A stretch of 11,386 nucleotides of DNA from Chloroflexota bacterium (lineage in GTDB: Bacteria > Chloroflexota > Dehalococcoidia > UBA3495), in assembly GCA_022576105.1 (NCBI GenBank), contig JACZRM010000033.1, positions 1 to 11,386 on the forward strand, given 5' to 3'. This document shows positions 5,632-9,768 of this stretch, piece by piece. Position numbers and translations under genes: made by a program. Position 1 is the stretch's first letter. The number at the start of each line of letters is the position of its first letter. The notes below the pieces were generated by a model, which was not told the origin of the DNA, searched no databases, and was given only the letters and a program-made list of their open reading frames with translations.

Positions 5632-6588
5632 TTAGGAAACCGGAGCGAGCAGGGAGTCGACAAATTCCTTAGCGTCAAAGGGCGCCAGATCATTCAGCGA
5701 TTCTCCGGTTCCGATGAAGAGTATGGGCACTTGGAGCTCCCGCTTGATGGCCAGGGCAATGCCGCCCCGTGCGGTGCCATCCAGCTTGGCCAGAAAAATG
5801 CCGGTGCAGCCCACCGCTTCCTTGAAGGCCTGGGCTTGGGCCAGTCCGTTGTGTCCCGTGGTGGCGTCCAGGGTCAGGAGCACCTGATGCGGAGCGGTAG
5901 GTTCCAGGCGGTTGATCACCCGGCGCACCTTCTTCAGTTCTTCCATCAGATTGGACTTGGTGTGCAGCCTTCCCGCCGTATCGATAATCAGAACGTCGGC
6001 ATCACGCGCCTTGGCCGCCTGGTAGGCATCGTAGGCCACCGCCCCCGGGTCGGCTCCTGGTCGGTGGCTAATTACATCTACGCCCACTCGTGCGCCCAGG
6101 ATTTCCAGCTGTTCCTCGGCGGCGGCGCGAAAGGTATCGGCTGCGCCCAGCACTACTTTCTTGCCTGCCTGCTTGAAGTGGTGGGCCAGCTTGGCGATGC
6201 TGGTGGTTTTGCCAACGCCATTTACGCCCACCATCAAGACCACGTAGGGTTTCACGCCGTCGTCTTTGTCCAGCCAAACATCGCTGTCGTCGTCCGGGTC
6301 CAATCCCCTGGCCAGCGACTGCTTCAGGGTTTCAAAAGCCTGCTCCGGGTCGTCGATGCGCTGGTCCTTGACCTGAGCCTTGAGCTCTTCAATAACGCCC
6401 AGCGAAGTCTCAACTCCAACGTCGGCGGAAATGAGGATTTCCTCCAACTCGTCCCAAACTGAGTCGTCCATTTGCGAAGAGCGGAGCAGTCCCAGCACCC
6501 GGCCGAACCAACGCTCCCGACTGCGCTTGACGCCCTCATCGGTCTGCTTTTTATTTTCGGCGCGATCGCGCTTAAAGATGCTAAACAT
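5632..6588 (-). CDS. ftsY: Signal recognition particle receptor FtsY
   Basis: FtsY is the SRP receptor GTPase. It docks ribosome-SRP complexes at the membrane and forms a mutually activating heterodimer with Ffh. At 318 residues this is the short form: about 20 charged residues replace the long acidic A domain of E. coli FtsY. The N domain helices cover about 22-95. The G domain shows the P-loop GVNGVGKTT (121-129), [11 protein letters not shown] (151-161), DTAGR (203-207), [10 protein letters not shown] (267-276) and the closing [13 protein letters not shown] (293-305). The G4 motif, usually TKLD, reads AKLD here. The ATG at 6588 has AGGTG only 2 nt upstream, a weak arrangement. The gene follows rnc by 61 nt; linkage of rnc with ftsY is common in bacteria. 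FtsY serves insertion of membrane proteins such as the two encoded downstream, but that adjacency may be incidental. Confidence 0.96.
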
Positions 6589-6649: not shown

Positions 6650-7345
6650 TTACTGGAGAATACCGGAGCGGGTCAAGGCGTCCTGGGCGGCGGCGCGTTC
6701 CGCATCGGCCTTCTTGCCGCCGTTGCCAGTGCCCATGACTTCGTCTCCCACCAGAACTTCCACGGTGAAAATTGGGCTGTGGTCCGGCCCTTCCGAGGAC
6801 ACCAGTTGGTAGCGGGGGGCCGGACGTCCCTGGCCCTGAACATGTTCTTGCAGCATGGACTTTGGGTTGTCGGGAGAAGCGCCCTTCTGGTACAAAACCG
6901 CCAGGTCGGGTTGTAGCGCCTTCAGAATAAATTCTTGGGCCTGAGTATATCCCTGGTCCAGATATATGGCGGCGACCAGGGCCTCAAAGGCGGCGGCCAA
7001 AATGGACTCCCGCTGCCGCCCACCGGAGGCTTCCTCTCCCCTACCCAGCAACAGAAAGCTGCCCAATTCCAGGCTCTGGGCGGCTTTAGCCAGGGATTCG
7101 CCACACACCAGGCTGGACCGGATTTTGGTGAGTTCGCCCTCGGGCAGTTGGGGCAGTTGCTGGTAGAGTTCGGTGGATATTACCAATTCCAGGACGGCGT
7201 CGCCTAGAAATTCCATCCGCTCGTAGGACTCGAGAGGCGTACCGTTCTGCTCGTTGAGGAAGGAACGGTGAACCAGGGCCTGTTGCAACAGACCCTGGTC
7301 ACTAAATTGCAGGCCTAGAGACGAGGCTAAGCGCTCAGCGCCCAA
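6650..7345 (-). CDS. rnc: Ribonuclease III
   Basis: RNase III is the dimeric endonuclease that cleaves double-stranded RNA in rRNA maturation and mRNA turnover. The 231-residue protein has the nuclease domain (about 5-150), with signature YERMEFLGDAVLEL (41-54) holding E42, E45 and D49. A C-terminal double-stranded-RNA-binding domain (about 158-228) ends in GNGGKKADAERAAAQDAL. The second metal-binding segment reads ILAAAFEALVAAIYLD (115-130): E121 is present, but the Asp found in E. coli as D114 is Ala118 here. The start is TTG at 7345, 9 nt after the stop of the upstream DsbA-like gene. GAGGG overlapping that stop (TAGAGGG) serves as Shine-Dalgarno, which suggests translational coupling. The next possible internal start would remove the first helices, so TTG is preferred. 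Confidence 0.95.
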   Translation of the reverse strand: MGAERLASSLGLQFSDQGLLQQALVHRSFLNEQNGTPLESYERMEFLGDAVLELVISTELYQQLPQLPEGELTKIRSSLVCGESLAKAAQSLELGSFLLLGRGEEASGGRQRESILAAAFEALVAAIYLDQGYTQAQEFILKALQPDLAVLYQKGASPDNPKSMLQEHVQGQGRPAPRYQLVSSEGPDHSPIFTVEVLVGDEVMGTGNGGKKADAERAAAQDALTRSGILQ

Positions 7346-7354
7346 GCTGTCCCT

Positions 7355-7990
7355 CTAAATTACCCCGTGAGGCCACGGTGGCTGGGGCCGCTTGACCTCA
7401 CCAACATATTGGAGGTCGGACACCAACTTGGTCAAATTGGTGTAAATTTCACCGGCCTGATCGTCGGGAGGAATGAACATCTTGATGAAGGCCGAGCCGC
7501 CGCTGGGGAAGACATAGGTTGGCACGCCAAATGCGCCGTGCTCTTCCACCGCTTTAGTGTGGCTCTCGCCAATCTCCCGCAGCAAATCAGCATCGACCAG
7601 GTCTTCTTTGAACTGGCCCATGTCGACAATGGAGTTGTCTACCGCTTCGTCGATCACCGCTGGGTCGGTCAGGTCCTTCTTTTCTTCGTGGCGGAGTTTC
7701 AGCAGCGCCATGAAGAACGACTCGAAGGCCTCTTTGCCCTGGCGTTTCGCGGCCAGTCCGGCCTGGTGGGCCAGCAGAGTGTGATCAGAGCCGTTCAAGA
7801 TTTCCGGCTGCTCCCAAACCTTGTAGTCTTCTCCCTTGTCTTTGCTGTTGATCTGGGCCAGGGAGAAGGGTTGCCAGTCTACATCAATGGTTTCTCCGGT
7901 TGTTTCCCGGACTTTCGACAGCCACACGGCTGCGTTATAGACAAAGGGTCAACGAAAGTCGTAGTAGGTAATGAAGTTAGCTTCGGCCAT
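7355..7990 (-). CDS. DsbA/FrnE-family oxidoreductase with in-frame TGA; candidate selenoprotein
   Basis: The gene encodes a thioredoxin-fold protein of the DsbA/FrnE group, 211 residues if the TGA at 7951-7949 (codon 14) is read as selenocysteine. The N-terminus MAEANFITYYDFR-(TGA)-PFVYNAAVWL puts the TGA exactly where the redox Cys of the family motif D-F-R-C-P lies. The cis-Pro loop GAFGVPTYVF is present near residue 168. A helical insertion between these parts is typical of the family. There is no signal peptide, so the protein should be cytoplasmic. The usual second Cys of CxxC is Val, and no Cys occurs anywhere else, so residue 14 would be the only redox centre. The ATG at 7990 has a strong GAGGTG 4 nt upstream. 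The GTG at 7927, where simple gene calling begins, has no ribosome-binding site and would remove the first strand and active site. Alternatives are a nonsense mutation or a base error (TGC or TGT to TGA). It is first in the operon with rnc and ftsY. Confidence 0.72.
7916..7951 (-). promoter_or_regulatory. Candidate bacterial SECIS element after in-frame TGA
   Basis: Starting at the TGA (7951-7949), the coding strand can fold a hairpin at 7934-7916. The 5' arm CGCAGCC pairs with the 3' arm GGCTG-T-CG, giving seven pairs with one bulged T at 7918, and closes a GTGT loop at 7927-7924. The loop begins 21 nt after the TGA and its first base is G. Described bacterial SECIS elements have a small apical loop with a G in the first two positions roughly 16-37 nt from the UGA, so this fits. 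The bulged T is on the 3' arm, unlike E. coli fdhF where it is on the 5' arm. It was found by eye, and a 7-bp stem can occur by chance in GC-rich DNA. Confidence 0.55.
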
Positions 7991-7994
7991 TTCG

Positions 7995-8001
7995 CACCTC
8001 T
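7995..8001 (-). promoter_or_regulatory. Ribosome-binding site that fixes the DsbA-like start
   Basis: The coding strand reads AGAGGTG, then CGAA, then ATG at 7990. This strong Shine-Dalgarno, 21 codons before the GTG at 7927, shows that translation starts upstream of the TGA and must pass it to make the full fold. Confidence 0.75.
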
Positions 8002-8053
8002 AGAAACTCTTATTTTCCGGGACCGTTGCTGCGGGATCGTGGTCTTAGGGAGG

Positions 8054-8062
8054 ATTGTAGCA
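8054..8062 (-). promoter_or_regulatory. Extended -10 promoter for the DsbA-rnc-ftsY operon
   Basis: On the minus strand TGCTACAAT (8062-8054) is a TGn-extended -10 with five of six bases matching TATAAT. It would start transcripts near 8047, giving a leader of about 57 nt before the ATG at 7990. No good -35 is seen: the expected position (about 8082-8077) overlaps the plus-strand -10. Extended -10 promoters can act without a strong -35. Confidence 0.45.
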
Positions 8063-8076
8063 TAATTGCTATGCTA
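8058..8076. promoter_or_regulatory. Perfect 7-bp inverted repeat between divergent -10 boxes
   Basis: TAGCATA (8058-8064) and TATGCTA (8070-8076) form a perfect inverted repeat with a 5-nt spacer, and each outer end runs into one of the two divergent -10 boxes. It may be a dimeric regulator's operator, or the symmetry may just reflect two mirrored TG-extended -10 elements. Confidence 0.45.
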
Positions 8077-8080
8077 TAAT
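8072..8080 (+). promoter_or_regulatory. Extended -10 promoter for the CCA nucleotidyltransferase gene
   Basis: TGCTATAAT is a TGn-extended -10 with a perfect TATAAT hexamer (8075-8080). It predicts transcription from about 8086-8088, only a few bases before the AGGAGG at 8092-8097. No good -35 is present; the place it would occupy overlaps the minus-strand -10. The short leader limits translation to starting at or just after 8104. Confidence 0.6.
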
Positions 8081-8091
8081 CACCTACTGAC

Positions 8092-8097
8092 AGGAGG
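8092..8097 (+). promoter_or_regulatory. Perfect AGGAGG ribosome-binding site that fixes an ACG start
   Basis: AGGAGG is followed after 6 nt (ccctcc) by ACG at 8104, in frame with the nucleotidyltransferase. This is the spacing expected for a start codon, yet no ATG, GTG or TTG lies in frame until 8254. Confidence 0.7.
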
Positions 8098-8103
8098 CCC
8101 TCC

Positions 8104-9372
8104 ACGCGGAAGCTGCGGCACATCCACAACCCCCTGCGGGCCATCGAGAATAGTATCGGTGGCGACAACCTGGTATTTTGGAACGCCCTGCGTCAAAGAG
8201 CCCTGACCCATTCGCTGCCGGTCTATCTGGTCGGCGGACCAATTCGGGATGTTTTGCTGGACGCTCCGGTTAAGGACCTGGACTTTGTGCTGGAGGGCGA
8301 CGCCCCCCAACTGGCCCGGCAGATGGCCTCTGATTTGGGCTGGGAATTGCTGGTGCATCAGCGGTTCGGGACGGCGACGGTGACTCATAACGGCTGCAGC
8401 GTAGATCTGGTGACCGCGCGCAGAGAAACTTACGCCGCGCCCGGCGCGCTGCCAAAAGTTGACGCTGGCGCATTGAGCGAAGACCTGGCCCGGCGGGATT
8501 TCTCGATCAACACGCTGGCATTGCCGATGTTCCAGGCGCAACCAGAGGTAATAGATGAACAGGGCGGAATTGCCGACCTGGAAAAGGGTCTGATACGCAC
8601 GCTGCACCCCAGAAGTTTCATTGACGACCCCACCCGTATCTTGCGGGCGGTCCGTTACGAGCAGCGATTCGGTTTTTCGCTGACCTGTGCAACCGAAGGG
8701 CAGCTTCAGCAGGCTCTAAGCCAGGGCTGCCTGGATACGGTGAGCGGTGACCGCCTGCGGCACGAGTTGGAGCGGATCCTGGAGGAGAAATTACCGGGAC
8801 GTGCGCTGGCGAGAGCTATATCGTTGGGAATTCTGCCGGCCATCCACCCGTCGTTGACCGAGAAATCAAGCCTGGCCAGGCTGGAAGCAAGTTCAGGCAA
8901 TGAAAGTACACCCGAGCCACTGGCCTGCTTGGCTGCCCTGGTGTATCACCTGTCGCCGGGCGATGCCGAGAGCGTCGTGCAGCGATTCAACATGTCCGGT
9001 CAATGGGCCGAAGTGGTGCGAGACACGGTTGCCTTGAGAGAACTGGAATCCCAGCTATCGGTGCCGGATTTGCGACCATCGCAAATTGTCGAACTACTGA
9101 ACGGACTCGGCGATGCTGCAGTTGCCGCTGTATCTCATATCTGTGATAGTCAGCTGGTCTCCCATCGGTTGGGCCAGTATCTCGGCCAACTGCGGCAGAT
9201 TGTGCCAGCCTTGGATGGCAATGCGCTGCTGGCGATGGGTGCGGCACCGGGGCCAACTATCGGGAAGATTCTGGCTAAATTGCGTGAAGCCAAGCTGGAC
9301 GGCCAGGTCGAGTCCGAGGAGGACGAGCGGCAATTGGTAGCTACGATGCTCGCGGGAGGGGTTGATGTCTGA
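8104..9372 (+). CDS. CCA-adding / poly(A) polymerase-family nucleotidyltransferase
   Basis: The product belongs to the class II tRNA nucleotidyltransferase/poly(A) polymerase family, which adds CCA (or only part of it) to tRNA 3' ends. From the proposed ACG start it has 422 residues. Motifs in order are LVGGPIRD (42-49), the metal-binding DLD (58-60), SVDLVTARRE (99-108) with the third carboxylate, RRDFSINTLA (130-139), and DPTRILRAVRYEQRFGF (175-191). No HD domain is seen, and the C-terminal half is helical. The frame is open from 8080 but has no ATG, GTG or TTG before TTG 8254, which lies after the essential VGG motif and so cannot be the true start. ACG 8104, 6 nt after AGGAGG, gives MRKLRHIHNPL if read as Met. 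It may be a rare ACG start or an ATG changed by mutation or error. Full CCA versus A- or CC-adding activity cannot be decided here. Confidence 0.87.
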   Translation, partial: TRKLRHIHNPLRAIENSIGGDNLVFWNALRQRALTHSLPVYLVGGPIRDVLLDAPVKDLDFVLEGDAPQLARQMASDLGWELLVHQRFGTATVTHNGCSVDLVTARRETYAAPGALPKVDAGALSEDLARRDFSINTLALPMFQAQPEVIDEQGGIADLEKGLIRTLHPRSFIDDPTRILRAVRYEQRFGFSLTCATEGQLQQALSQGCLDTVSGDRLRHELERILEEKLPGRALARAISLGILPAIHPSLTEKSSLARLEASSGNESTPEPLACLAALVYHLSPGDAESVVQRFNMSGQWAEVVRDTVALRELESQLSVPDLRPSQIVELLNGLGDAAVAAVSHICDSQLVSHRLGQYLGQLRQIVPALDGNALLAMGAAPGPTIGKILAKLREAKLDGQVESEEDERQLVATMLAGGVDV

Positions 9373-9650: not shown

Positions 9651-9768
9651 TCATTCTGAAGGAGCCCTTCGGCTCGCCTGTCCTGAGCTTGGCGAAGTGG
9701 CTCAGGGTAAACTCCGTGAACGAAGAATCCCAGATTCTTCACCTTCACTTTGTTCCGGTTCAGAATGA
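9651..9768. repeat. 118-bp MITE/REP-like element with 10-bp terminal inverted repeats
   Basis: The ends tcattctgaa (9651-9660) and ttcagaatga (9759-9768) are perfect inverted repeats. Inside are three hairpins: gagcc/ggctc (9662-9675), cctgagc/gctcagg (9682-9706) and gaagaatc/gattcttc (9722-9740). The cctgtcctgagcttggcgaag segment and the gaagaatc...ttcagaatgac end resemble non-coding palindromic repeats recalled from many bacterial genomes, including Chloroflexota. No transposase or flanking target duplication is seen. Open frames crossing it are not credible genes. It fills most of the 256-nt gap between the zinc-finger and MDR genes. Confidence 0.65.

Follow-up and report, generated by a model that had tools for sequence, protein, structure and literature searches.

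A probable selenocysteine-containing DsbA-like protein of Chloroflexota with an in-frame UGA at the catalytic cysteine position

Gene organization of the locus

The DNA analyzed (the window) is a stretch of 11,386 nucleotides from a Chloroflexota bacterium (contig JACZRM010000033.1), and its relevant features are collected in Table 1. A gene for a DsbA-like protein, most probably a selenoprotein, lies upstream of genes for ribonuclease III and an FtsY-like SRP GTPase on the same strand, with a CCA-adding/poly(A) polymerase-type gene in divergent orientation. By eye, the same two downstream neighbors are found in the related loci L001 and L179, and the ORFs of L001 read in the order ADH, CCA-adding gene, selenoprotein gene, RNase III and FtsY. 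L001 (JADFQT010000092.1) belongs to a Chloroflexi MAG (genome G001) and was the only relative that the named genome collection yielded; its protein is 72% identical to that of the window, with TGA at the same codon.

Table 1 Features of the window discussed in the text
Feature	Position	Strand	Remarks
FtsY-like SRP GTPase gene	5632..6588	-	same neighbor in L001 and L179, by eye
Ribonuclease III gene	6650..7345	-	next gene downstream; same neighbor in L001 and L179, by eye
DsbA-like gene, probable selenoprotein	7355..7990	-	211 residues including the predicted Sec, plus TAG stop
G155-V156-P157	7520..7528	-	site of the DsbA cis-proline loop
SECIS-like hairpin	7916..7934	-	7 pairs (CG plus CAGCC/GGCUG), one-base bulge, loop GUGU
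GTG, start chosen by ordinary gene calling	7925..7927	-	active site missing from product
In-frame TGA, codon 14, taken as Sec	7949..7951	-	catalytic Cys column of D-F-R-U-P-F-V
Ribosome-binding site GAGGTG	7995..8000	-	before ATG 7990; by eye; equivalent in L001 is GGAGGTG
CCA-adding/poly(A) polymerase-type gene	8254..9372	+	divergent; TGA stop

Two further arrangements were seen in these regions. Beside the orthologue in L179 (genome G349) lie three ORFs of 570-603 aa in tandem that closely resemble one another (L179:135-5631). The intergenic spacer at 9651-9768 of the window carries 10-nt inverted arms, TCATTCTGAA and TTCAGAATGA, 98 nt apart, and a minus-strand ORF within it reads PEPLRQAQDRRAEG; our impression is that this spacer resembles a dispersed intergenic repeat.

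The initial annotation had described a ribosome-binding site GAGGTG and an ATG leading into an in-frame TGA, and all three elements are present, at 8000-7995, 7990 and 7951-7949. The open frame that it saw past the TGA is also there, although its figure of 190 further residues is not correct: 197 sense codons follow before the TAG at 7357-7355, and it is the truncated ORF that has 190. Its expectation that ordinary gene calling would begin at GTG 7927 and lose the active site agrees with the mechanical ORF list, in which the frame opens at just that codon and gives 190 aa. The protein read through the TGA matches Pfam DSBA with 53.0 bits, from residue 8 onwards, compared to 34.8 bits for the 190-aa ORF, and the full-length protein narrowly passes the cut-off of the Rv2466c-like Pfam family (29.1 vs. 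27 bits). None of the NCBIfam models fits, the sole match being weak and unrelated, and a promoter scan of 7300-8300 found none.

Conservation of codon 14 in related genes

Counting the window, 99 gene copies were read, and their codon 14 is TGA in 87 cases, TGC in seven and TGT in five, with no other codon seen; the copies were retrieved as matches to the window protein and the sample is therefore tilted towards its kin. All 87 TGA copies continue past codon 14 with an open frame of 180 codons or more. In alignment A1 (57 rows, Sec written as C), a comparison of homologues that had been proposed as a check, column 14 holds Sec or Cys in every row, and D11, P15, G152, F154, G155 and P157 are likewise among the invariant columns.

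Whenever a contig shows a lone in-frame stop, this may be a nonsense mutation, making the gene a pseudogene, or a base error in place of a Cys codon. Such an origin is exceedingly improbable here, as 86 other copies likewise have TGA at this codon and the frame behind it remains open throughout the TGA copies. The argument that the TGA at the catalytic Cys is no chance hit is borne out by the 12 remaining copies, all with TGC or TGT at this codon, and relatives with unrelated stop codons in this gene, named by the initial annotation as contrary evidence, were looked for and not found. One candidate, a 'TAG' within the match of genome G059, was rejected since it lies near the end of the gene (codon 202 of the match). 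Comparison of the gene sequences indicates that the relatives already exclude mutation or error as a general explanation.

Searches of whole genomes gave matches in 45 of 294 genomes of the class of G001, in 96 of 147 genomes of its order (E 1e-20) and, with a profile (E 1e-15), in 99 of 400 genomes of its phylum; viral contigs searched for relatives gave no match. Exactly one TGA is present in 89 of the 98 match rows of the order. In the phylum search 30 rows score above 180 bits, of which 14 have TGA inside, and the Sec form does not prevail generally across the phylum; among the extra genomes from this search, codon 14 is TGA in L185-L188 and Cys in L184. Two genomes of the order (L154 and L163) each have two tandem copies of the gene, with TGA at codon 14 in both. 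A tree of 106 rows (87 Sec, 19 Cys) with column 14 masked calls for at least seven changes between Sec and Cys, six of them forced by starred branches; it is a quick, unrooted tree in which several long branches leave details unsure, and, its root not being inferred, it does not give the direction of the exchange.

The protein database yielded 420 matches. Among the 120 matches listed, 107 start after column 14, and the others have Cys (12) or Trp (one, P0007) in that column; some of the 107 late-starting entries, P0097 for example, may be truncated Cys copies. Database annotation thus agrees with a true start at GTG 7927 or a nearby codon, by which the short protein would be the product and the upstream TGA irrelevant. 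We find this scarcely credible, however, considering that the sequence preceding the TGA shows conservation at the protein level, with D11 invariant in the 57 rows, that a good ribosome-binding site stands in front of ATG 7990, and that the Pfam score climbs by the margin given above when the N-terminal segment is included. A late start would also remove strand 1 and the catalytic residue from the fold.

A SECIS-like hairpin behind the UGA

According to the accessible text of a 2026 review (PMC13188914), a bacterial SECIS element has a loop of 3-9 nt with G in loop position 1 or 2 and an upper stem of 4-16 bp, lies 16-37 nt from the UGA and folds with -7.5 kcal/mol or lower. The hairpin in the window satisfies all of these constraints: its loop starts 21 nt past the UGA, five of its pairs are uninterrupted, and its folding energy is -9.9 kcal/mol, compared to a mean of -5.0 kcal/mol for 1000 synonymous recodings (p=0.001). 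The 87 TGA copies fold on average with -9.19 kcal/mol vs. -5.30 when recoded (mean z -2.07), while the corresponding values for the 12 Cys copies are -3.91 and -3.69 kcal/mol (mean z -0.19). The z values of the two sets differ (Mann-Whitney p=3.9e-5), the Cys copies being a small and distant control because there are only 12 of them, none more than 43% identical to the window.

The full set of constraints is satisfied by 61 of the 87 TGA copies and by one of the 12 Cys copies, and the loop starts at 21 nt in 71 of the TGA copies. These counts come from free folding of a 24-nt segment; an added stem-length test left them unchanged (61/61), and 58 of the 61 have four uninterrupted pairs. At least one constraint is missed in 26 TGA copies, and 12 have an AUGU loop, in which neither of the first two positions is G, including four of the five nearest relatives of the window (L099-L102). 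An earlier script that allowed no bulge reached -7.5 kcal/mol or lower in 20 of the 87 TGA copies. When the stem was tested without bulges, only 28 of 87 TGA copies formed the outermost pair, 16-31, and the fraction of cells paired was 0.82 in register vs. 0.68 at a register shift of -3. Dinucleotide shuffles of a 52-nt region were unremarkable (z -0.91 for the window, 0.01 for L001), and those of a 29-nt core gave a modest z of -1.94.

Codon usage within the hairpin is biased in the TGA copies after thinning. Ala20 is encoded by GCA, the A of which pairs with the U of the Leu24 codon, in 37 of 51 copies vs. 144 of 1017 Ala codons further along these genes (p=1.8e-19), Leu24 by CTG or TTG in 49 of 56 (p=4.8e-8) and Ala21 by GCC or GCT in 35 of 44 (p=0.0017), the latter two likewise above the rest of the genes; as the copies are related, these p values do not describe independent events. 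The sequence comparisons support maintenance of a SECIS-like hairpin by synonymous codon choice in the TGA copies. That synonymous sites build this hairpin in the TGA copies and not in the Cys copies as a set speaks further against a mutation or sequencing error.

Selenocysteine genes in related genomes

In the class sample, the 24 genomes with a TGA copy have tRNA-Sec and selB in 22 cases each and selA and selD in 23 each, every genome having at least two of the four. The seven Cys genomes are mixed: selA and selD are over the cut-off in three (G059, G202 and G106), none of selA, selD and tRNA-Sec is so in G077, G015 and G051, and of these three genes G092 has a match to tRNA-Sec only. Judging by E-values, the selB match of G202 (E 4.8e-79) should exceed the cut-off and those of G077, G015, G051 and G092 (E 1e-55 to 1e-59) should fall under it. 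In the order search, the best TGA genomes other than G001 all have selB and tRNA-Sec (19/19 for each), and the five Cys genomes have tRNA-Sec in all cases and selB in four, with no selB match in G392, so that Cys copies are also found in Sec-using genomes. The tRNA-Sec anticodon is TCA in all 10 of the relatives' loci checked.

Both selB and tRNA-Sec are present in four of the five nearest relatives. The fifth is G001, which has selA, and selD with one in-frame TGA, but neither selB nor tRNA-Sec over the cut-off, its weak Rfam matches being ordinary tRNAs; the simplest reading is a gap in a fragmented MAG. Across the class, 208 of 294 genomes have tRNA-Sec over the cut-off and 197 of 294 have selB. 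As the Sec trait is this common in the class, and present in Cys genomes too, co-occurrence of Sec genes is weak evidence when taken alone, and codon 14 and the hairpin bear the argument. One in-frame TGA is present in each of the 26 selD genes over the cut-off, suggesting that selD itself is probably a selenoprotein gene in these bacteria.

Decoding of the UGA as Trp or Cys, through an altered genetic code or a suppressor tRNA, has one database relative on its side: P0007 (147 member sequences), whose Trp at column 14 is possibly a table-4 reading of TGA, or else a true Trp. We nevertheless consider such decoding highly implausible. In the window TGA serves as a normal stop codon too, as it terminates the CCA-adding/poly(A) polymerase-type gene and, in all, three of the eight window genes checked, with TGG codons used in six; the Cys copies use TGC or TGT, and relatives carry selB and tRNA-Sec(TCA). 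On UGA read as Cys in Chloroflexi we saw no mention, and the term UGA is absent from the accessible text of PMC5424206.

The proposal that the TGA encodes selenocysteine is well supported by codon 14, which is TGA or Cys in 99 of 99 copies, by the SECIS-like hairpin and by the Sec genes of the relatives, and on these grounds we regard the window TGA as almost certainly decoded as selenocysteine.

Predicted fold and possible catalytic cycle

All 57 rows of alignment A1 match Pfam DSBA. In an AlphaFold model of the window protein (pLDDT 93.5, pTM 0.89), residue 14 follows the strand formed by residues 6-10 and directly precedes a helix spanning residues 15-31. P157 is presumably cis and faces the active site, as we take to be the case in the DsbA family. 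There is no Cys among the 211 residues of the window protein, where the motif reads U-P-F-V; the TGA copies have no Cys in 57 of 87 cases, one in 28 and two in two. Column 17 holds V in 98 of the 99 copies and A in the remaining one, so that the family has no CXXC. No signal peptide was seen by eye in the window protein.

We propose that SelB delivers Sec-tRNA(UCA) to the UGA at 7951-7949, aided by the SECIS hairpin, the loop of which starts 21 nt downstream, and that the resulting lone selenol would be placed at the start of helix 1, facing the cis-Pro loop. There it would probably reduce oxidized substrates, either mixed disulfides or peroxides, in a one-selenol, glutaredoxin-like cycle. Attack by the selenolate would lead to a selenenyl-sulfide or a selenenic acid, and, as no Cys is available within the window protein to resolve this intermediate, an external thiol or thioredoxin would restore the selenol. 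A one-selenol reductase is suggested by the single Cys of DR2335 and the monothiol mechanism of NCgl2478, both described below. This catalytic step is less certain than the insertion of Sec, and by analogy with these proteins we give it about an even chance.

It is also conceivable that the protein is decoded with Sec and acts as a thiol oxidase or isomerase, in a folding role like that of DsbA or DsbC, rather than as a reductase. The DsbA fold and the Pfam DSBA match of the whole alignment are in keeping with such a role, which we nonetheless judge unlikely: the second motif position has no Cys, a signal peptide was not seen, and NCgl2478 (DsbA-Mrx1), according to the accessible text of PMC8280269, has no oxidase activity and acts on mixed disulfides as a monothiol enzyme. 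We therefore favor the reductase. As a whole, the most satisfactory explanation of the locus, and on sequence grounds very probably the right one, is a DsbA-fold oxidoreductase, probably cytoplasmic, with Sec at UGA 7951-7949, one-selenol reduction being its less certain part.

With regard to the thiol donor, mycothiol and bacillithiol were considered and are unsupported, since in 15 of 15 relatives MshC is under the cut-off (best 339 vs. 485 bits) and BshC absent. We assume that the MshC matches under the cut-off are probably cysteinyl-tRNA synthetases.

Implications

As the gene models omit the catalytic residue (107 of 120 among the matches listed), an enzyme that is frequent in Chloroflexota and probably depends on selenium appears in annotation as a short DsbA or a hypothetical protein. 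With Sec and Cys forms occurring naturally at one site, the family is suited to testing the contribution of selenium, and its active site with one selenol and no resolving Cys is useful in the same way. A wider picture may be put forward tentatively, as one that we think somewhat more likely to fail than to hold: that one order has a family in which Sec is in the majority, with a single selenol, no resolving Cys, a donor other than mycothiol or bacillithiol and repeated exchange of Sec and Cys, serving an order-wide selenium-dependent redox function. If true, this function has been hidden by annotation that removes the active site.

Comparison with known systems

The closest solved structure by both sequence and fold is DR2335 of Deinococcus radiodurans (7dk9; C24S variant, 7dka). 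The sequence match has an E-value of 1.2e-16 in a single search and 5.8e-29 with a profile, and the top four Foldseek hits are DR2335 chains, wild type and C24S, with 7dka first (E 5.1e-12, TM 0.79). An M. leprae protein, YjbH and Rv2466c come next, with GST kappa and FrnE lower. The Cys of DR2335 aligns with Sec14 of the window protein; DR2335 differs in having Cys instead of Sec and is 26-27% identical to the window protein. In the accessible text of PMC8945050 it is described as having one conserved Cys, with functional data not known to the authors. We found no paper for 7DK9 in the open-access literature.

Rv2466c and NCgl2478 (DsbA-Mrx1) have a fold in common with the window protein, which passes the cut-off of the Rv2466c-like Pfam family. 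NCgl2478, which is Rv2466c-like, uses a monothiol mechanism to reduce mixed disulfides and retains this activity when the second Cys is changed to Ser, as stated in the accessible text of PMC8280269. In contrast to the window protein, which has V at the second position, these proteins have CPWC or CPFC with a resolving Cys and use mycothiol (PMC8280269, accessible text).

The initial annotation had termed the protein DsbA/FrnE-like. DsbA-type is appropriate, but the FrnE label is loose: like the window protein, FrnE (DR_0659) belongs to the DsbA family and is predicted to be cytoplasmic, whereas its active site is CXXC, often with an additional C-terminal CXXXXC (PMC8945050, accessible text), and the window protein has UPFV and no Cys. 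A search of the open-access literature for FrnE together with selenoprotein or selenocysteine returned nothing apparently related.

DsbA-like selenoproteins have long been known. From the accessible texts, a UxxC form was part of the 2005 Sargasso Sea set (PMC1088965), DsbA-like selenoproteins were listed in 2006 (PMC1794560), and the GOS selenoproteome of 2008 includes 'DsbA 3' (pfam01323, UxxV) with a table row '5, 3, 72', which we take as five Sec sequences and 72 Cys homologues (PMC2398784). The 2026 review gives a 'DsbA-like protein form 2' (PF01323, DxxUP), represented by MDP6049977.1, an entry labelled crotonase/enoyl-CoA hydratase (PMC13188914, accessible text). In the open-access literature DxxUP was found in that review only, no description of this DsbA-like selenoprotein family in Chloroflexi was found, and the word 'Chloroflexi' is absent from the accessible text of PMC2398784.

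The window protein combines a PF01323 domain with both D-x-x-U-P and U-x-x-V: its UPFV fits 'DsbA 3' and its D-F-R-U-P fits 'DsbA-like form 2', each comparison being by motif only. A difference from 'DsbA 3' is that, within the order searched, most copies are of the Sec form. The protein therefore fits both published entries and, as far as motifs tell, appears to be of a kind already known, to which the present analysis adds the distribution among Chloroflexota, the predominance of Sec within one order and the truncation of the gene models.
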